A stretch of 64,000 nucleotides of DNA from contig JAUZSE010000001.1 of NCBI GenBank assembly GCA_030949725.1, forward strand, positions 1 through 64,000, read 5' to 3'. Shown here piece after piece: positions 3,992 through 49,187 of this stretch; the stretch's first letter is position 1; each line of letters begins with the position of its first letter. The notes under the pieces were generated by a model. It was given only the letters and a program-made list of their open reading frames with translations. It was not told the DNA's origin and made no database searches. The translations under genes were made by a program, and so were the position numbers. Source of the DNA: Sulfurovum sp. (GTDB lineage Bacteria > Campylobacterota > Campylobacteria > Campylobacterales > Sulfurovaceae).

Positions 3992-4113
3992 ATGAAAGAT
4001 ATAGAAATTGACAATATTATATTGTAGATTTATTATTGATAAAGTACAAAGAAAATGCTTTTAGTAAAAATTATGTACTCAAAAAGAAGTGGAATGAACT
4101 AAGTGAAAAATAA
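3992..4113 (+). pseudogene. Short reading frame with a frameshift, upstream of the RAYT gene
   Basis: AAGGAG at 3979-3984 stands seven bases before an ATG at 3992, a good ribosome-binding arrangement. The frame reads MKDIEIDNIIL and stops. In a second frame DLLLIKYKENAFSKNYVL continues to a TAA at 4111-4113, overlapping the GTG start of the next gene. Joined, this would be a protein of about 40 residues. I do not recognise it. It may be a remnant or a small gene with a one-base error. The rest of the 3912-4102 gap shows nothing else. Confidence 0.3.
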
Positions 4114-4633
4114 ATATTTACCATATACCGATGTAAGCAATCACTGTAAATTTATTACTTTTAGAACAGTTGAGAGTGAAGATTCTACCTTACACGAAAT
4201 CTTAAATCAGAAAAATATATCTGATAAAATGAAACAATATCAAGTAGATACATATCTTGACGGATCAAATAAAGGGGCTTATCTAAATGATGATATACTA
4301 CAATTACTACATAATCTTTTAAAATCACAAGATATGATACTTTATGATTTAGTTGCTTATACAATTATGCCAAATCATATTCACCTTTTGATAGTACCGA
4401 AAAAAAATTTATCTTTTATCATGGAAACAATCAAGAGTATAAGTAAAACAGAGATAAATAAAATTCTTAAGAGAAAAGGTCAGTTTTGGGAAGACAACTA
4501 TCATACTAAAAATGTTAAAAATGAAAATCAACTTGACTTAATCTACAAATATATAAAAAATAATAGCTTGAAACTAAATATAAATAAAGATTTATCTTCT
4601 AGGTTTTACGGTATTTATGAGGAAAATAGATGA
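4103..4633 (+). CDS. REP-associated tyrosine (Y1/HUH) transposase-like protein
   Basis: This is a 176-residue member of the Y1_Tnp family (IS200/RAYT type). The metal-binding HUH motif is in YTIMPNHIHLL (His92-Ile-His94), and the downstream segment GQFWEDNYHTKNV with a helix rich in Asn/Tyr matches the end of RAYT proteins. RAYTs are single-copy DNA-processing proteins derived from IS200/IS605 transposases that act on REP hairpins. No IS200-type ends or REP arrays are evident next to it. It starts with GTG at 4103 and its stop overlaps the ATG of the Fic gene (ATGA), so the two are probably cotranscribed. Confidence 0.8.
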   Translation: MKNKYLPYTDVSNHCKFITFRTVESEDSTLHEILNQKNISDKMKQYQVDTYLDGSNKGAYLNDDILQLLHNLLKSQDMILYDLVAYTIMPNHIHLLIVPKKNLSFIMETIKSISKTEINKILKRKGQFWEDNYHTKNVKNENQLDLIYKYIKNNSLKLNINKDLSSRFYGIYEENR

Positions 4634-5700
4634 AAGAATTCACCCCAAAACTCCTACCACTAAAAAAAGACATAGAAACCAAAGAAATCCTAAAAGCTAC
4701 TACTTTAGCTCATAGAGCATTGGCAGAGTTGAAGGGGTTGGCTAATTCTTTGCCAAATCAGAAGATTGTTATCAATACTCTTGTGTTGCAAGAGGCTAAA
4801 GATAGTTCTGAGGTTGAAAATATTATTACTACTTATGATGAGGTGTATCGTTCTGATATTTCTAATGATTTTATCAATAGTGATAGTAAAGAGGTGCAAA
4901 ACTATAAAGATGCTCTCTATTTAGGCTTTGATATTATTAAAACCAAAGGTGTTTTGACAGTTAATCATATCAAAGAGATTCAAGCAACATTGGAAAAAAA
5001 TGATGCAGGATTTAGAAAGCAAAGTGCTACTGTACTTAAAAATCCTTCAACTGGAGAGATAAAACTTATCCCACCACAGCACCCACAAGATATTATTAAT
5101 CTTATGGCAAATTTGGCAGAGTATATCAATGACCCCACATTAGAAGATTTTGATAGCTTGGTCAAGATGGCTATTATTCATTATCAATTTGAGAGTATTC
5201 ACCCCTTTTATGATGGCAATGGAAGAACGGGGAGGATTATCAATATTTTGTACCTTGTCTTAGAAGGTTTACTTGATATGCCTATACTTTATTTGAGTCG
5301 GTATATCATCAAAAATAAATCAGATTACTATACACTACTCAATAATGTGAGTTTCCATAATGGACTCAATGCGTGGATAATGTTTATGCTAAAAGGTATA
5401 GAAGTGATTTCAAAAGAGACTATTGCAGTGATACGAACGATAGAAGTCTTGATGCAAGAAACAAAAGCTATAATTTTGGAAAAGAAGCCAAAAATTTATA
5501 GTAAAGATTTACTAGAAGCACTTTTTTATCATCCTTATACCAAAAGAGTATTTATAGAAGAACAATTAAATGTTTCAAGACCAACAGCTACCCATTACCT
5601 CAAAGAGCTTGCAAGCATGGAGATTTTGAGAAGTCAAAAGATAGGTAAAGAAGTTTTTTATATTCATGATAAATTATTTAATCTTTTCAAACACATGTAA
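4630..5700 (+). CDS. Fic family protein (AMP-transferase type) with C-terminal winged helix
   Basis: The 356-residue protein has a Fic_N-like first part, the Fic core with HPFYDGNGRTGR at residues 191-202 (catalytic His, phosphate-binding loop), and a C-terminal winged-helix segment (LNVSRPTATHYLKELASMEI). An inhibitory-helix motif of the [S/T]xxxE[G/N] type is present as SSEVEN (Ser59-Glu63-Asn64), which in class II Fic proteins blocks ATP binding in cis. Fic enzymes usually transfer AMP to a hydroxyl side chain of a target protein; the target here is unknown. The gene overlaps the upstream RAYT gene by four bases. Stand-alone Fic-HTH proteins of this type are common on accessory DNA. Confidence 0.88.
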   Translation: MKEFTPKLLPLKKDIETKEILKATTLAHRALAELKGLANSLPNQKIVINTLVLQEAKDSSEVENIITTYDEVYRSDISNDFINSDSKEVQNYKDALYLGFDIIKTKGVLTVNHIKEIQATLEKNDAGFRKQSATVLKNPSTGEIKLIPPQHPQDIINLMANLAEYINDPTLEDFDSLVKMAIIHYQFESIHPFYDGNGRTGRIINILYLVLEGLLDMPILYLSRYIIKNKSDYYTLLNNVSFHNGLNAWIMFMLKGIEVISKETIAVIRTIEVLMQETKAIILEKKPKIYSKDLLEALFYHPYTKRVFIEEQLNVSRPTATHYLKELASMEILRSQKIGKEVFYIHDKLFNLFKHM

Positions 5701-11051: not shown

Positions 11052-11838
11052 TTACCCACATTTCCCAGGTGCACATTTCATGCCGTTAAACTGTCCTGTG
11101 AGTGTGCCATCCATACTGCCTTCGTGCATTTTGTCCATGCGTTCTTTCATCATCTGAGGATGGGCTATGAAGTTGTATCCTTTATAGAGAGTGATACCCC
11201 CGTAGAGGATGACTAGTATACTTGCTAGTTTCATCATAGTGCCACGTAGTGATCCTTTTTGTAGAAACTTGGTAATGATTCCTAAGAAAAATAGGGCAGG
11301 TATGGTTGCTAATCCAAAGGTTGCCATCACCAATGCACCTGAAAGTGGATCTGCTGTACTTGCTGCGATGATAGCAAAGGAGTAGACCAGTCCACAAGGG
11401 ATGATTCCATTGAGTAAGCCTAAAAGATAAAAGCTTTTATATGATTTATCTGACATGAGTTTTCTGAAGTTATTTTGATACCAAGGGTATTTTGAAACAG
11501 ACCATTCTACTGAGCTTAAAAATTTGAAATTTCCAAGAAGTGAAAGACCAGCGAGTATCATCAACACACCTGTGAGTACAAACAGCACACCTTTTGTCGT
11601 GGGAGTAAAAGCAAGTATTTGCCCTAGCAAAACCAAATACTGCACCGAGCATCGTGTAGGTAGTGACACGTCCAAAGTTGTAAGATAAATGTGCAAATGT
11701 TTGTTGCCAATAACTTGTCTGTTGATCTATTTTTGTAGAAGAATAGGCAACAACAATACCTCCGCACATTCCTATGCAGTGTCCTACACTTCCTAAAAAA
11801 GCTGTGGTAAGAATAATAATAAGGTCTAAATTTCCCAT
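11052..11838 (-). pseudogene. Sulfite exporter TauE/SafE-type membrane protein, one frameshift, with C-terminal Cys motif
   Basis: The start at 11838 gives MGNLDLIIILTTAFLGSVGH followed by CIGMCGGIVVAY, the Cys-containing first segment of the short SafE/DsbD-like family found near cytochrome oxidase and copper genes. After GRVTTYTMLGAVFGF the frame is lost at about 11628; removing one base restores FLGQILAFTPTTKG and six helices. The restored length is about 261 residues. The C-terminus ends FNGMKCAPGKCG, a putative metal-binding motif that recurs in two proteins of the efflux locus at 20-25 kb. Related proteins have been linked to copper delivery or thiol transport; the substrate is not determined here. 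Confidence 0.8.
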
Positions 11839-11909: not shown

Positions 11910-12344
11910 GTGTTTAAAAGCTTGAAGCGGACTGTTACAAAAATATTTAGGGAGCTTTTGGTCCATCATCATGGTTCTTTGGAATATAGGGCAAAAGTTT
12001 TGACACTTATGATTTCTTCAAATGGTGAAATTTGTGAATGTGAAAAACAAAAGCTCAAAGAGATAGCCCAAAGTATTTATGGAGATGATCAAGATAGAGC
12101 AGAACTACTTTTAGATACAGTCCATGAATATCATATAAAAATCATTACCCAAAATGGACTTGATTTTGAACATTTGATTCAGTTAGTTGAAAAAGAAACC
12201 AAAGCTGTAAAACGTTTTGCAGATAAAATAGATATGAAACTCCTTATGCAACTACACGAATGTATGAAAAGTGAGGAAGATATACTTTTCCAGCAACGCA
12301 TATTGGAATTTTTACAAGAATTAAAAGATGAGTATGGAGAATGA
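11910..12344 (+). CDS. TerB-like protein
   Basis: This is a 144-residue helical protein. The segment AKVLTLMISSNGEICECEKQ followed by KLKEIAQSIYGDDQD resembles a TerB/DjlA-type helical domain with acidic loops. The start is GTG at 11910; the region upstream has a plausible TATACT box at 11873-11878. It ends two bases before the preferred start of the TrlF-like gene, so it may be cotranscribed with the defence-like pair. TerB domains occur in stress- and phage-related gene clusters, but the function here is not established. Confidence 0.55.
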   Translation: MFKSLKRTVTKIFRELLVHHHGSLEYRAKVLTLMISSNGEICECEKQKLKEIAQSIYGDDQDRAELLLDTVHEYHIKIITQNGLDFEHLIQLVEKETKAVKRFADKIDMKLLMQLHECMKSEEDILFQQRILEFLQELKDEYGE

Positions 12345-12345
12345 T

Positions 12346-14661
12346 ATGAATGAAAAATTTAAAAATGGCTCGCAATGGGTAAGATTTGATTGTCATTTAC
12401 ATACAAAAGAAGATATTAGTGTTGCAGTCATTACCAATCACAATAAATTTAACAGACATGAATTTAAACAATTGAAGAAAGAGTTTAAAAATGGATATTT
12501 ATTAGCAGGTATAGAGCTTAATATAAAAGAAAGTGCTAATGGCATTCATACTTTAATTGTATTTAATGAAAAGTGGTATGCAAATAAAACAGATGAAGAC
12601 TATATAAACAAATTCTTAAATTCCGTATCAGAAGGGCAAGAAAATTTTGCTACTAAAAATGGTAAAACTAATACCGATTTTATAGAAACAATTAAAAAAC
12701 TAGAAACATATAAACAAAACGGTAGAGATTATTTTATAATATTAGCTGATGTAGAAGGTGAAAAATCGTATATTAAAATTGGTGATTATAATTTTGAAGC
12801 AGTTAAATTTGCATTACAGAATAAAGAATATAGAGTAAAAAAAGAACTCCCTAAAACTGAAAATTCATATATAAAATCAATCTCTTTTAATGGTGGTAAA
12901 TTGGATGGGCAAACTATTGAATTATCATCATCAATGAATAATTTTGTAGGAGTAAGAGGTAGTGGAAAATCTTCTATTATTGAAGCTGTTAGATATGGAT
13001 TAGATTTAGAATTTTCAGATAAAAATGCAGATTATAAATATAAAAATAATTTAATAGAAAAATTATTAGGCAGTGCAGGAAAAATAACAATAAGAGCGTT
13101 TGATAATCGTAGTAATGAATATACTATTGAACGGGTTTATGGTCATAGTGTAGAGATTAAGAAAGATGGAGAAATAAAAAACCTTGATATATTTTCACTA
13201 CTTAATAAACCGTTATATTTTGGACAAAAAGACTTATCAAGTTATAAAGATGGGTATGAAAAAGATTTAATAAATAAATTTATTGGTGATAAAACAAAAG
13301 ATATTAAATCTCAAATTGAGATGAAAAAACAAGAGATAAAATCATTACTAGAAAATATAAAAAAATATGATAATTTAAATGATAAAAAAGAGGAAGTTCA
13401 AAAAAAGATAGAAGAATTAAAATTAAAGATTGATGAGTTTAAAAAGCATAATATTGAAGATAAGTTAAAAAAACAGATGGAATTTAATAAAGATGATTCA
13501 AGTTTCACAAATATTATTAAGGATTTACAAGAGTTTAGAAATGACGCAAATAGTTTTTTAAAGACTTATGAAGAAAATAACTTTTTTGAGAATTTAAAAA
13601 AGTATAAGTCTAAAGAAAATCAAGATATATTTAATAGTCTTTATACAATTATTGATACAAGTAAAGATACATTTTTAAATATCTCTACACAGTTAAATAG
13701 TTTAACATCTAGTTTTAAGGATATAAATTCTTTACATAGTTCTTTCAAAGATAAATATAAAGAATTTAATGATACTTTTTTAGAAGTTCAAAGAAATATT
13801 AATCTTCCTGATAATTTAAGAGCAGATGATTTTATAAATTATACAAAAACATTAAATTCACAAGAATTAATGTTGAAAGAAATTGAAAAATTATCACATA
13901 TAAAAAGTAATTTAAAAAGTAATTTAACAAAACTAATATCTGAATTAAATAATTTATATTTAGATGAATTCAGATTAATAGAAGATGGAATAAATTCTAT
14001 AAATCAAAATAAATCATCTATTGAATTAAAAGCAGAATTTAAAGGCGATAAAGACTCTTTTGATAAATATTTAAGAAATATTTTTAGTGGAAGTGGATTA
14101 ACAAAAACTGATTATGAAAAACTTACGCAATATAAAGATTGTATTGAAATATATAATGACTTTGATAATATATCATTTGGCGGAAATAAACTACTAATAT
14201 TTAAAGAAAAGTTTATAAATTCACTCTCATTACTTCTTACTTTTCAAGTATCAAATAAAGTTGAAATACTTTATAATGGAGAATTACTCGTAAATCATTC
14301 ATTAGGTCAACGTGCATCAGCATTAATACTATTTATTTTGACCCAAAGAGATAATGATATAATCATCATTGACCAACCAGAAGATGATTTAGATAATCAA
14401 ACAATTTATAAAGAAGTTATAGAAGAATTATTAAAGCTTAAAGATAAAACACAATTTATATTTGCAACGCATAATGCTAATATACCTGTATTAGGAGATT
14501 GTGAACAAATAGTAGTATGTGATTATGAAGAAAATAAAATTAATATAGAAATGGGAAGTATAGATAATCATGCTATACAAGATAATATAATAAACATAAT
14601 GGAAGGTGGAGAAAAAGCCTTTAATAAAAGAAGGGATATATATAATTTATGGAAACATTAG
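12346..14661 (+). CDS. TrlF-type PHP-domain/AAA ATPase with shortened PHP domain
   Basis: This protein of about 771 residues starts at ATG 12346, with GGAGA at 12336-12340; two in-frame ATGs further up (12328, 12334) overlap the preceding gene. The N-terminal PHP part has GSQWVRFDCHLHT (HxH metal motif) and, only nine residues later, VITNHNKF. PHP proteins usually have about 25-40 residues between these motifs. The part after ILADVEGEKS also joins directly to YIKIGDYNFEAVKFAL, skipping a usually longer segment. The ATPase has Walker A GVRGSGKSS near residue 202, a long coiled coil (about 310-600) and Walker B IIIIDQPEDDLDNQT near 672, then FATHNANIPVLGD. The layout matches TrlF-like SMC-type ATPases. 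It overlaps the next gene by 13 bases and is markedly AT-rich, suggesting transfer. Confidence 0.8.
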   Translation: MNEKFKNGSQWVRFDCHLHTKEDISVAVITNHNKFNRHEFKQLKKEFKNGYLLAGIELNIKESANGIHTLIVFNEKWYANKTDEDYINKFLNSVSEGQENFATKNGKTNTDFIETIKKLETYKQNGRDYFIILADVEGEKSYIKIGDYNFEAVKFALQNKEYRVKKELPKTENSYIKSISFNGGKLDGQTIELSSSMNNFVGVRGSGKSSIIEAVRYGLDLEFSDKNADYKYKNNLIEKLLGSAGKITIRAFDNRSNEYTIERVYGHSVEIKKDGEIKNLDIFSLLNKPLYFGQKDLSSYKDGYEKDLINKFIGDKTKDIKSQIEMKKQEIKSLLENIKKYDNLNDKKEEVQKKIEELKLKIDEFKKHNIEDKLKKQMEFNKDDSSFTNIIKDLQEFRNDANSFLKTYEENNFFENLKKYKSKENQDIFNSLYTIIDTSKDTFLNISTQLNSLTSSFKDINSLHSSFKDKYKEFNDTFLEVQRNINLPDNLRADDFINYTKTLNSQELMLKEIEKLSHIKSNLKSNLTKLISELNNLYLDEFRLIEDGINSINQNKSSIELKAEFKGDKDSFDKYLRNIFSGSGLTKTDYEKLTQYKDCIEIYNDFDNISFGGNKLLIFKEKFINSLSLLLTFQVSNKVEILYNGELLVNHSLGQRASALILFILTQRDNDIIIIDQPEDDLDNQTIYKEVIEELLKLKDKTQFIFATHNANIPVLGDCEQIVVCDYEENKINIEMGSIDNHAIQDNIINIMEGGEKAFNKRRDIYNLWKH

Positions 14662-15809
14662 AATTAATTGAAAGAATTTCTAAAGGAGAAGATAGTTATA
14701 CACAATTTAAAGTACAAGCTGTAAGTAGTAAAGATTTAGCAAAAGAATTTGTTGCATTTGCAAATGCTGAGGGTGGTATTTTAATTTTTGGTGTTGCTGA
14801 TGATGGAGAGATTAAAGGACTAAGTTTGGATGAGATTGAATCTTTAGGACAATTAATAGGTAATGTTGCAGATAACAATGTTAAACCACCTATTCATCCT
14901 TTAATCCAAAATATGATAATTGATGATAAAAAAGTAATAGTTATATTTGTAAAAAATGGTATTAGTAAACCTTACAAAACAAGTAGTGGCGTTTTTTATA
15001 CAAAATCAGGTGCAGATAAAAAAATAATTTCTGATGAAGAACTACGAAGATTATTTGCTCAATCCAAAAGACTTTTTGCAGATGAAGAGCCTATAAATGG
15101 AACTGATATTTCTCATTTAAATCAACAACTTTTTGATAAATTTTTAGAAAAATATGATAAAAAACTATATAGAGAATTAAAGAATAGTGATTTAGATTTT
15201 ATACGGTTGCTTCAAAACTTTGATATTATGAGAGGTGAAAATTTAACACTTGCTGGTAATTTGATTTTTGGTATAGACCCACAAAGATTTAATAAATCAT
15301 TCTATGTAGATTGTTGCTATTTTGATGGAAATGATATATCTGTAACTAAATATATAAATGAGAGAAGAATCTATGGAGACTTTGAAACTTTATATACTAA
15401 AGCGACAGATTTTTTAAAAAGTAATTTAATAAATCGACAAGTAGATGAAAATTTTAATTCAAATGGAGTACCTGAAATATCTTATGAGGTTATTGGTGAG
15501 TTGGTAGTAAATGCACTTATTCATAGAGATTATCATATCAATAGCTCTATTAAAATTTTTATATTTCATAATAGAGTAGAGATTATCAGCCCTGGAAAAC
15601 TTTATAATTCATTGACTGTTGAGAAGATAAAAATTGGTACTTCAATAAGGAGAAATCAAACCTTAGATAGGATTTGTAATAATATTTTACCTTATACGGG
15701 TAGAGGTAGTGGGATAAAAAGAGTATTAAGTATAGATCCTGATGTTGAATTTATCAATGACATGGATAAAGAAGAATTTAAATGTATTATCCCGAGAGAA
15801 TTGAGATAG
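14649..15809 (+). CDS. AlbA_2 (Schlafen-like) domain protein with C-terminal GHKL-type ATPase region
   Basis: This is a 386-residue protein. Residues 1-140 form an AlbA_2/divergent AAA-4 domain (EDSYTQFKVQAVSSKDLAKE, FANAEGGILIFGVADDGEIK, YTKSGA). The C-terminal third contains VVNALIHRDYHINSS, VEIISPGKL and YTGRGSGIKRV, typical of the ATPase-like region (HATPase_c_4) in this family. Such proteins were once annotated as RecG-like or transcriptional regulators, and AlbA_2 domains occur in several anti-phage systems. It overlaps the TrlF-like gene by 13 bases, so the two are probably translated from one message. It is convergent with msrA at two bases distance. Confidence 0.85.
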   Translation: METLELIERISKGEDSYTQFKVQAVSSKDLAKEFVAFANAEGGILIFGVADDGEIKGLSLDEIESLGQLIGNVADNNVKPPIHPLIQNMIIDDKKVIVIFVKNGISKPYKTSSGVFYTKSGADKKIISDEELRRLFAQSKRLFADEEPINGTDISHLNQQLFDKFLEKYDKKLYRELKNSDLDFIRLLQNFDIMRGENLTLAGNLIFGIDPQRFNKSFYVDCCYFDGNDISVTKYINERRIYGDFETLYTKATDFLKSNLINRQVDENFNSNGVPEISYEVIGELVVNALIHRDYHINSSIKIFIFHNRVEIISPGKLYNSLTVEKIKIGTSIRRNQTLDRICNNILPYTGRGSGIKRVLSIDPDVEFINDMDKEEFKCIIPRELR

Positions 15810-15811
15810 CT

Positions 15812-16336
15812 TTACGCCATCTCTTTCCCAAACTTCGCTTCTAATTTCGCTAACTTCGGGGGTATGACTGCATTGCAATAGCCTTGCATGGGGTTTTGTC
15901 TGTAGTAGTCTTGGTGGTAGGCTTCTGCTTCGTAATAGCAGGCTAAAGGTTCTATGCAAGTGACTATAGGGTCAGTGTAGTCTTTTTGTGCGGCTTCTAG
16001 TGCAGCCTCGGCAGCTTCTTTTGTCTCTTCATCTGTGTAGAGGATGGTGGAGCGGTATTGGGTGCCTCTGTCTCCACCTTGTTGGTTGAGTGTGGTAGGG
16101 TTGTGGACTACAAAGAAAATATCCAAAAGGGTGTCTGAAGTGATGATACTGTCATCGTATCGTATCTTTATCACTTCTGCATGTCCTGTGGTACCTGTAC
16201 ATATCTGTGTATAGGTTGGGTCTAGGGTTTCTCCGTTTGCGTAGCCACTTTCTACATCGCTCACACCTTTGAGTGTCTCAAATACTGCTTCTGTACACCA
16301 AAAGCATCCGCCACCAACTATGAGTTCTTGTTTCAT
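15812..16336 (-). CDS. msrA: Peptide-methionine (S)-S-oxide reductase MsrA
   Basis: This 174-residue enzyme reduces methionine-S-sulfoxide in proteins, using thioredoxin to recycle. The catalytic motif GGGCFWCTEAVF lies at residues 8-19, and YHQDYYRQNP near the C-terminus is the usual conserved element. The length is normal for the single-domain form. It is transcribed alone, divergent from the gene at 16443. A thioredoxin gene (trxC) lies 650 bp downstream of its start. Confidence 0.96.
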   Translation of the reverse strand: MKQELIVGGGCFWCTEAVFETLKGVSDVESGYANGETLDPTYTQICTGTTGHAEVIKIRYDDSIITSDTLLDIFFVVHNPTTLNQQGGDRGTQYRSTILYTDEETKEAAEAALEAAQKDYTDPIVTCIEPLACYYEAEAYHQDYYRQNPMQGYCNAVIPPKLAKLEAKFGKEMA

Positions 16337-45710: not shown

Positions 45711-46982
45711 TAGGTCATTTTCATACAATATAAACCCAACTATGTAACTAATCTACCCAGAAAGTGAGGGTTATTCCCACAACTTTTAAAAATACCCGAC
45801 ATATTGAGGCTTTTATTGTCAGGTTTATGCTTGTTTAGGTGAAGTTGTATGCAATTAATGACAAAACTCCTAAGAATAGCTAATCCAAAAGGATTGACTG
45901 ATATTTTACAATCGTCCTCTTTGGTTAATCTGTCTTTATAATAATGGTAAGTTTCACAACGCCAATGGTCTTTGATACCTTCTTTAAAGTAGGTAGCACT
46001 TTCTAAAAAATTTGCAATTAAATATTGCTCTTTTACTTTTATTTTACCCTCATTGTCACTTATATATTTTACCTGCTTAATGATTGATTTTATATGACTA
46101 AAAGAGCTATTATCAATGAGTGATTCATCATTTTTGAACTCAAAACGAAAGTCTCTCTTTTTACCCATTTATTCCCTTCAATAGACTCTCTTTTATCTTT
46201 CTCTTCTAAGATAGTATTATTCTCTTTTGCAGATTCCTCTTCAAAGGCTTGATGCACCTGTTTAAGTAATGTTTTTTGGTTACCTTTGACTTTGGCTAAA
46301 TACCTTTTTCCTTTAGCCTCAATCCCATTTAGGCTCTCTACTTGGGTATTTAGTGCATCAAAGGTATATAGAAATGGTTTATCTGAAAACTCCATCTCTA
46401 ATACCTTTTGAAACTCGGGTATCTCGGACTTCTTAGCTCCTAACTCTCTATGGGCAATCACAATTTTAGATGCTGTTTCCACTACATTTAGCATACCTAC
46501 ATTCCGTTTAACAGTATATTTCCCCTTGTGTCCACTTCCATTCATTGTCTTTCCATCTACGGCTAATTGTGTCTTCTCATTGAACTCAACTTTAGGTATA
46601 AAATACTCTCTAAACATCTCTTCTAAGATAGTAGAATCTATGTTTATTATCATTCTTCTTATTGTTGAATATGAAGGTATGTTAAGCTCTTCATTTTCTT
46701 TCCCTATCAGCCTTTTAAAGTACTTCTCATTGAAGTTTATCTTTAGCCAATTATGTTTATCTTTTATTTCTATATTTCCTACAAACATACTACATAAAAC
46801 ACCAAATAATACATCTCTTTGGTTATGTTCTATTTTCTCTTTTGTTACTCTATAATCTGGCAATCTTTCTAATATCTCTAGGGTCATTTCTATATTTATT
46901 AATTCTTTAATTTCTATTTTCATAGATTATTTTAAACATTTATTCGCTTTGTTCTTGCTTGGAATTGTATGAAAATGACCTA
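45711..46982 (-). mobile_element. ISAs1-family insertion sequence (1272 bp)
   Basis: Its ends are TAGGTCATTTTCATACAATA at 45711 and, inverted, TAGGTCATTTTCATACAATT ending at 46982 (19 of 20 identical). GTTGAAAGGG stands on both sides (45701-45710 and 46983-46992), a 10-bp target duplication, within the length known for ISAs1. The single minus-strand transposase is frameshifted. Confidence 0.92.
45740..46923 (-). pseudogene. ISAs1-family transposase, one frameshift
   Basis: The N-terminal 250 or so residues (from 46923) have the ISAs1 layout: DYRVTKEKIEHNQRDVLFGV, LAVDGKTMNGSGHKGK (first Asp), FLYTFDALNTQVESLNGI (second Asp) and YLAKVKGNQKTLLKQVH. After NKWVKRETFVLSS the frame is lost (about 46090-46168), and the C-terminal part continues in another frame: KSIIKQVKYISDN, DHWRCETYHYYKDRL (catalytic Glu helix region) and NPFGLAILRSFVINC. 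The complete protein would be about 394 residues. Confidence 0.88.
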
Positions 46983-47000
46983 GTTGAAAGGGTACGGTGG

Positions 47001-47738
47001 CTAGGATTGTGTTAGGACTTTAATTCTTACAGAATATGTTAAATCTTTTGAATTATTCCCAAGATTTAAAAAACCACTACTTAAAACAATTTCTAAATCC
47101 TCAGCAATGATATATCTATCGTGTAAGTTATTTGGATAGGCTTTTATATCAATATTCATTGATTTTCTCATTTTTTTTAGTTCTGATTGTGCTAATTTTA
47201 ATTCTAAATCATTTGTTTCACTAAAATCTACAAAAACTTCTAAACTTCCATTTTGAGGTAAAATATCGTCTAAAATCTTACTATTTTTCTTCCATTCTTT
47301 TAAAAAGTATTTATCTTTAATTTTTATCTCTTTCTTGTCTGCTAATAAATCTTTGATATACAACCTAATATCTTCTCTCTTTTTATCTTTTTTGCTGTAA
47401 GTTTGAGAAAAAACTACTTCAAGACCATCTTCTGTAATATCTATTTGTTTGATTTTTTTTGTTTTATCTATTGAAGTGACTAGCATTAGTTTTAAATGAC
47501 TCTCTTTTACCAATGCTTCAAAGCTATTTAAATCTTCTTCTATTCTATTTATCAAAGGTGTGTTTACTAATTTTCTCAAAATTTCATCATCTAAATAATC
47601 TAAGTTTCCAAGTTGCCATTCAGAAGTAATACAAGGCTTAAAATGGTTCAATATTTTAGACACTAAAACTTCATCATAATTAGATTTTAAATCATAGGCG
47701 ATTATCTCATCTAATAAATTATCTTCAAGAACTAGCAT
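47001..47738 (-). CDS. Phospholipase-D-like protein paired with the AAA ATPase
   Basis: This 245-residue soluble protein is helical and Lys/Glu-rich over most of its length. Near the C-terminus HDRYIIAEDLEIVLSSGFLN followed by NSKDLTYSVR resembles the half-motif of PLD-like nucleases (HDR followed by a Gly/Ser strand). Only one half-site is seen, so a dimer would be needed. It overlaps the ATPase gene by 14 bases and the ISAs1 element ends eight bases beyond its stop. I infer an effector acting with the ATPase; the biochemical activity is not shown. Confidence 0.55.
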   Translation of the reverse strand: MLVLEDNLLDEIIAYDLKSNYDEVLVSKILNHFKPCITSEWQLGNLDYLDDEILRKLVNTPLINRIEEDLNSFEALVKESHLKLMLVTSIDKTKKIKQIDITEDGLEVVFSQTYSKKDKKREDIRLYIKDLLADKKEIKIKDKYFLKEWKKNSKILDDILPQNGSLEVFVDFSETNDLELKLAQSELKKMRKSMNIDIKAYPNNLHDRYIIAEDLEIVLSSGFLNLGNNSKDLTYSVRIKVLTQS

Positions 47739-49187
47739 TTTTTCTCTTTGCTCTTTTCATCTCCAAGAGTTCACTAAGCGTCACATCAAAAAAGTTCTTT
47801 GGAAAATCTCTATCAAATTGACCAAATTCATCAATATTTATCTGTATAAACTCATCACTGCTTTGTTCTTTATAATAAATAACCACTTCTTCGGGTTCTA
47901 TTTTGCCTTCATATACTAAGTATCGCAGTTTATTTACAATATATTCACTATGCGTTTCCAAAATTGTGGTTTGAGTTTTATAATAATCATCTTCACCAAA
48001 AAGCGTTTCAACAAGTTTGGCTTGTGCTTGTGGATGCAATCCAATTTCAGGTTCTTCTATAATAGTTAGATTATATTTTTCAGGAGTTTCTCTATTTTTA
48101 GCAAACTGAGTAAGAGCAGGAATAATATTACTCACAGAACTACCAAACATATCAAGTCCTAGAGATGTATTTTCATAGTATTTATAGAAGACAAAATTAC
48201 TCTCTTCCGTAACTTTTAATAATTCTATCTCCTGATCTTTTTTAATTAAAAATATTTTATTATCAATCTCTTTAATTTTTAAAGGGTTTTTTTGAAGTCC
48301 TAGGTCTTGGAAATAATAATATTTATTATCTCGTTTATTTTTAAATAGTTGTACTTGCATTTCTTGATTTATATAGCAGTTACCCAATTCATCTATTTTA
48401 TCAAGATTATAATTAAAAATATTTTTTATAGCTTTTTCTAAAAAGGTTATATTTTTTAAATCTTTTGCAATATCTTTGTATTTTTCTCCATTATATCCGA
48501 TATAGTCACTACTATAATTGTAATGAGTCATAATTTCTTTTACCTTGCTAATATGTTTGATAGCTGATATATTGTCTTCTAATATTTGAAATATATCTTT
48601 TAACGGTTCTTCAAACTTATTAAATACTTCAAGATGTTTAATAACTTCATTTTCTATATTCTTGGGATAACTATATAATTGTAGAGATTTAAAATCAGTT
48701 TTAAAGGAAATTTCCTTACTGTTATCTAATATACTTTTAGTGAACTGATCTTTATCATACTCTGTAATTAACTGATTTAAAGTTATAAGGGACTCATTAT
48801 CTTTATATGAAAAACTAATCTTTCTTTTTTTTATCTCTATTACTATATGATTTAAGTAACCATACTCACTTGATTTTATATCATTATTATACAAAAAAGA
48901 TATATTATATATATTCTCTTTTTATCTTTAAATTTAAAGTGTAAATACACATGATTATCTCTACTTTTAAATTCATCTACTTTTCCAAGCTGATGAAAAG
49001 GGTTATCATATTTAACCCGTTTTATATCATTACCTAAAATTTTATTCATACTCAAAAGTGACATAGCTTGTAAAAATGAGCTTTTACCTGATGAATTTTC
49101 TCCCATAAAAATAGTAATTGGTTTTATATCAAGGGGCTTCTCTACGTTACAGGCTTTTATATTCTTTGCTCCAAATCCGATTATCAT
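47725..49187 (-). pseudogene. AAA ATPase (DUF3696/OLD-like), frameshifted at a TA repeat
   Basis: The N-terminus (from 49187) has IIGFGAKNIKACNVEKPLD and Walker A MGENSSGKSSFLQAMSLL (Gly29-Ser37). The frame breaks after KDKKRIY at ATATATATAATATAT (about 48903-48918); removing two bases gives RIYNISFLYNNDIKSSEYGY and continues for about 390 residues to Walker B LTIIEEPEIGLHPQAQAKLV, TTILETHSEYIVNKLRYLV and a short DUF3696-type tail. The joined length is about 486 residues. ABC-like ATPases of this type power several anti-phage systems together with a nuclease gene. IS copy 3 lies 26 bases upstream of its start. Confidence 0.78.

Follow-up and report, generated by a model that had tools for sequence, protein, structure and literature searches.

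A trlF-trlG pair of the TRL operon with a degenerate PHP domain in a Sulfurovum genome

The window, by which we mean the whole 64,000-nucleotide stretch of Sulfurovum sp. DNA that was analysed, carries the trlF-trlG pair of the named TRL operon as a PHP-degenerate variant. The pair itself already has a name; what is new here is the PHP-degenerate TrlF. Three ORFs, all on the plus strand, are present in the ORF list of the window (Table 1), and both their coordinates and the 13-bp overlap between trlF and the AlbA_2 gene were re-found as given in the preliminary description. TrlF scores 418 bits against NF045780 (TrlF family AAA-like ATPase; curated cut-off, 350), and TrlG, encoded directly downstream, carries the Pfam domains SLFN_AlbA_2 and HATPase_c_4, which bears out the initial naming of a TrlF-type ATPase and an AlbA_2 protein. 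The proteins of pYR3, a published TRL carrier, match full-length (TrlF, 34%, 9e-167; TrlG, 38.5%, 1e-92). The combination, initially not recognised as a named system, is that of the TRL operon. The two genes are indeed AT-rich: the GC content is 0.23 for trlF and 0.27 for trlG as compared to 0.351 for the whole window, and among the 46 ORFs tested trlF ranks lowest and trlG fifth lowest. The trlF ORF encodes 777 residues when read from its first possible codon, and trlG encodes 386. A candidate start for TrlF at ATG 12346, preceded by GGAG (12336-12339), agrees better with the MNxKFxNGS start conserved in homologues, so that the 17-bp overlap of the TerB-like gene with trlF is probably only apparent.

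Table 1. Coordinates, in the window, of the trlF-trlG module and the features at its borders.
Feature	Position	Strand	Basis or remark
TerB-like ORF, GTG start	11910-12344	+	ORF call
5' junction of module	12334..12353	+	host sequence to TATGGAG; overlaps border TGGAGAATGATATGAATGAA
trlF, SMC/Rad50-like ATPase with degenerate PHP	12346..14661	+	NF045780, Shine-Dalgarno, homologues; ORF readable from 12328
PHP remnant (boundaries approximate)	12363..12755	+	alignment; keeps HLHT, TNHN and GxE motifs
AAA_23/SMC-type ATPase part and coiled coil	12756..14661	+	motifs
trlG	14649..15809	+	AlbA_2 aa 14-126; HATPase_c_4 aa about 279-382
3' junction	15807..15822	.	trlG stop, then intact msrA 3' end

The TerB-like gene had been counted as a member of the cassette. 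Its GC content is 32%, it is present in 62 of the 78 genomes of the genus, and in sister genomes it keeps a constant order with msrA and the gene for a SafE-like exporter, the pair being absent. Synteny therefore rules out its membership and identifies it as a genus-conserved chromosomal bystander. The usual order in the sisters is SafE-like exporter, terB-like, acylphosphatase (acyP, named by eye from sequence), msrA, thioredoxin, response regulator and histidine kinase, with variable inserts. In the window, acyP is gone and trlF-trlG stands in its place between the terB-like gene and msrA. The window tracks the host sequence of the nearest sister to GATGAGTATGGAG and thereafter reads AATGATATGAATGAAAAATTT; the border of 20 bases, TGGAGAATGATATGAATGAA, recurs unchanged at the Mod-TrlG border in another Campylobacterota genome, G019, and msrA is intact at the other end of the module. 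A search of the rest of the genome of origin, which is about 70% complete, returned no acyP; it was run without a positive control. We infer that the pair was acquired by horizontal transfer, displacing acyP.

Other genes have also entered this neighborhood. In one sister a BcgI-like restriction-modification (R-M) pair separates acyP from msrA, and in a second one R-M-like genes lie downstream of acyP, both identified by eye; loci L049 and L056 show the acyP-msrA interval of sisters with other inserts, R-M-like genes among them. At 11052-11838 of the window, a SafE/TauE-like exporter gene that forms one frame in the sister genomes is frameshifted.

The description of a PHP remnant proved correct, in that two internal stretches are deleted from the window TrlF as judged against homologues with 69-88% identity in the ATPase part. 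About 24 residues between HLHTKED and ISVAVITNHN are absent, as are about 66 residues of the AHxE...EGSD...G segment; relative to the gene of G062, the stretch coding for PHP has gaps of 72 bp and about 200 bp. A metal-ligand His of the PHP domain is replaced by Asp (LAH to LAD, within ILAD), and EGSD is lost. All the other aligned TrlF rows that cover these segments retain them. A Pfam search of the window TrlF did not match a PHP domain, and the protein lacks a complete one at its N-terminus. Among relatives with a full gene the nearest is L067, whose PHP domain is intact and which shares 88% identity in the ATPase part and 85% over the remaining PHP residues. In L067, an 8-bp direct repeat, AAGATATT, flanks the first deleted segment, which suggests slippage as a route to that deletion. 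The ATPase part shows a Walker A motif (GVRGSGKSS), a signature motif (SLGQR) and a Walker B motif (IIIDQPEDDLDNQ). The TrlF and TrlG identities show mosaic histories. The AF2 model of the window TrlF has modest scores (pLDDT 76, pTM 0.52) and we draw no fold claims from it. Separately, the TrlF encoded at 7986-10559 of L069 has a PHP part 79% identical to that of the window and an ATPase part just 51% identical, a mosaic TrlF that looks as if PHP domains swap between copies.

TrlG is predicted to consist of a Schlafen-like AlbA_2 domain and a histidine-kinase-like ATP-binding domain. Its AlphaFold model is confident per residue (pLDDT 88; pTM 0.66), and Foldseek matched it to DIP2311, human Schlafens and the SAMD9 tRNase domain and, more weakly, to histidine-kinase catalytic domains. 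Sequence profiles of PDB entries returned DIP2311, Schlafens and CbCash, so that Pfam, profile and fold matches all place TrlG in the AlbA_2/Schlafen fold. In the alignment of the family, E14 is invariant, D51 is nearly invariant and Gln19 occupies the second acidic position in all sequences. Thus, the E-x4-E of what we take to be the catalytic acidic triad of Schlafens (E-x4-E ... D) reads E-x4-Q in every aligned TrlG. Because this second acidic residue is a Gln, the RNase activity of TrlG is uncertain, and catalysis is putative. At 11 published sites of loss-of-function substitutions, whose numbering was fitted through a homologue, the window TrlG keeps the wild-type residue in seven cases and has an R-to-K change in two more. 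Four of the published substitution sites, S16, A36, N336 and G355 in the window TrlG numbering, do not vary within the family.

Scanning 84,980 species genomes yielded 28 loci, with the AlbA_2 gene directly after trlF in most of those whose contig continues past trlF (the exceptions are L078, L079, L082 and L088). Co-occurrence had been put forward as a check of the initial proposal; TrlF and AlbA_2 proved to be adjacent across many phyla and frequently within R-M operons. The paired loci come from genomes or MAGs labelled Campylobacterota, Bacteroidota, Spirochaetes, Synergistota, Fibrobacterota, Firmicutes-type and Rhizobium, the gene names in unannotated loci being assigned by eye. The pair stands alone, is borne on plasmids, or lies within R-M operons of types I and III, with the gene orders SNF2-Mod-TrlF-TrlG-Res (L063), TrlF-TrlG-Res (L066), Mod-TrlF-TrlG (L086), HsdM-HsdS-TrlF-TrlG-HsdR (L069) and HsdR-TrlF-TrlG-HsdS-ATPase-HsdM (L091, adjoining a Tn7-like element). 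The window pair, in contrast to these five relatives, has no R-M operon around it. Stand-alone pairs follow housekeeping genes such as dnaK or glnS. No relative of the pair was detected by tblastn in viral contigs.

When 298 Campylobacterota genomes were searched, five of them proved to carry true TrlG (above 500 bits), at six places in all: four with TrlF, one without it in G019, where TrlG lies between Mod and Res, and one as a second copy in the genome of the window, behind a C5-methyltransferase gene split by an IS. An IS-type transposase element with split ORFs is also found at 811-2260 of the window, and a 98% identical copy (G000:C10, L138 6739-8184) is the one that interrupts the C5-DNA-methyltransferase gene just upstream of the second trlG. 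The Mod of the G062 operon had no match in the genome of the window, in a search without a positive control. Other Campylobacterota TrlF subfamilies, at L143-L146, stand in the row SbcD-like, SbcC-like, TrlF (by eye), apparently a different association.

In Photorhabdus laumondii the TRL operon is trlR-trlF-trlG; its TrlG has AlbA_2 (14-128) and HATPase_c_4 (298-365) domains, and its TrlF is annotated as a histidinol phosphatase, and hence as a PHP protein (Hapeshi et al. 2020, PMC7554251). The operon is induced on a temperature shift and halts growth at 36 C, with suppressors in trlG and not in trlF, and the three-gene synteny was seen in only a few other genomes (PMC7554251). The window pair shares with it the two protein families, the domain architecture of TrlG and the patchy distribution, but it has no adjacent trlR (upstream is the TerB-like gene, not a 79-aa trlR) and its PHP domain is mostly deleted. 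In 2025, a pair termed 'RNA-binding protein + AAA-like ATPase' was reported beside RptR and inside a type I R-M system (PMC12255303). These product names match those of TrlG and TrlF in plasmid records, and the pair, which sits between hsdS and hsdR, is very probably the same module. The window copy lies outside any R-M operon and has no RptR gene. The TrlR of pYR3 (79 residues) has the residues reported for RptR, a defence-island repressor, E25, T57, E58, S60, K61, L65, R68, L69, A72 and L74, and one TAGCTA lies 41 bases upstream; from residues and length, rather than an alignment to RptR itself, TrlR would be an RptR-family repressor.

Schlafen RNases fused to a minimal histidine kinase and a wHTH serve as back-up effectors in BREX (PMC12839542). 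They resemble TrlG in architecture but differ in that the partner of TrlG is TrlF, and no BREX genes were seen around the window pair. The Ppl and Spaf_1101 families also combine PHP with an SMC-like ATPase and match the ATPase part of TrlF, but the window TrlF falls far under their curated cut-offs. PrrC and RloC, which are linked to type I R-M, are alike in logic, as an R-M-embedded, growth-arresting second line of defence (PrrC in EcoprrI), but these anticodon nucleases belong to another effector family (HEPN) than the AlbA_2 of TrlG, and we claim no effector homology. Menshen does not name the pair, as a review gives it as DUF262 with an OLD nuclease, nor do the partial or weak PADLOC matches to Ppl, PDC-M49A, mad3 and pAgo. 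The DefensePredictor paper is silent on AlbA, Schlafen and PHP.

On balance, we think it probable that the window pair is a horizontally acquired TRL-type module, with TrlG as a growth-arrest effector, TrlF as an SMC-like sensor and the PHP activity lost in this copy; an R-M-linked, abortive-infection-like growth-arrest module would be the most likely description. The fold matches of TrlG and the published arrest together favour TrlG as the arrest effector and TrlF as its sensor or regulator, and the occurrence of TrlG without TrlF, in G019 and in the genome of the window, agrees with the location of the Photorhabdus suppressors. As to what triggers the module, which RNA it targets, how TrlF and TrlG divide the work and its anti-phage purpose, we infer the following scheme. 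TrlF would sense a threat (foreign DNA, DNA ends or a failing linked R-M system) and govern TrlG. The AlbA_2 domain of TrlG would act on RNA or tRNA, or bind nucleic acid, under the control of the GHKL-like ATP-binding domain, and active TrlG would stop growth. The PHP domain would normally be an extra metal-dependent phosphoesterase or nuclease of TrlF; in this copy, its activity would have been lost through the two deletions and the His-to-Asp change, the ATPase and TrlG being retained. A defence role of the pair is likely. Against the scheme count the Gln at the second acidic position of TrlG, the intact copies that in some cases stand alone amid housekeeping genes, and the published phenotype, a temperature-dependent growth arrest; the papers searched report no phage-defence test of the pair.

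That phenotype, the only one published, and the induction of the operon on a temperature shift could instead mean that the locus arrests growth in response to temperature or stress and has no part in phage defence. We consider this improbable: the pairs recur inside R-M operons of types I and III, on plasmids and beside a Tn7-like element, which together with the RptR-type control points to conflict with foreign DNA, and a temperature effect can be that of a misfiring effector. The PHP gap could be an artefact of assembly, the true gene being intact, as the genome is a draft and the frameshift in the neighboring SafE-like gene makes sequence errors possible. Two separate multi-codon deletions with the frame kept and clean joins are, however, atypical of indel errors, and the His-to-Asp change is an independent substitution, so that we regard an artefact as very unlikely.

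A less remote alternative, though still an unlikely one, is that the pair is a decaying TRL remnant in which the PHP deletions came first and which is still open solely because the loss is recent. The two deletions with the loss of the metal ligand, the repeat around the first deleted segment in L067, and the broken TrlF genes of other Campylobacterota (G148, G232) are consistent with decay. On the other hand, both deletions are in frame, and the 777 and 386 codons, at 23-27% GC, are free of stops and frameshifts. Moreover, dN/dS is well under 1 in all parts (the TrlF ATPase lies at 0.18-0.21 and TrlG at 0.20-0.28; measured against L067, the PHP remnant is at 0.09 and the ATPase part at 0.21). 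These ratios show that trlF has been under purifying selection, but the substitution pattern is mostly older than the deletions and is no proof that the truncated protein functions. Thus, the truncated TrlF may be functional or may be at an early stage of decay. We also entertain, tentatively and with no great expectation, a bolder reading of the growth-arrest module, in which the window holds a working PHP-less TrlF-TrlG, the PHP domain is dispensable, and the SMC-like ATPase and the Schlafen/GHKL effector form the core machine, itself a mobile cartridge for growth arrest; its junction with host genes or R-M operons would be a conserved Shine-Dalgarno/start border.

The TRL operon of 2020, the RptR-linked pair of 2025 and the R-M-embedded TrlF-TrlG appear to form one module. 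With a single module, and with the TrlR of pYR3 resembling an RptR-family repressor, TRL can be tested directly for a role in defence. The PHP-less allele that occurs in nature, like the TrlG-only operons, shows which parts may be dispensable.

Elsewhere in the window, a second AT-rich stretch, with GC down to 0.24 and minus-strand ORFs, is found at 46001-49000. At 4103-5700, an AT-rich, REP-type transposase-like ORF directly precedes the gene for a SoFic-type Fic protein, which matches PADLOC SoFic at 9.7e-111 with an NCBIfam score under its cut-off.
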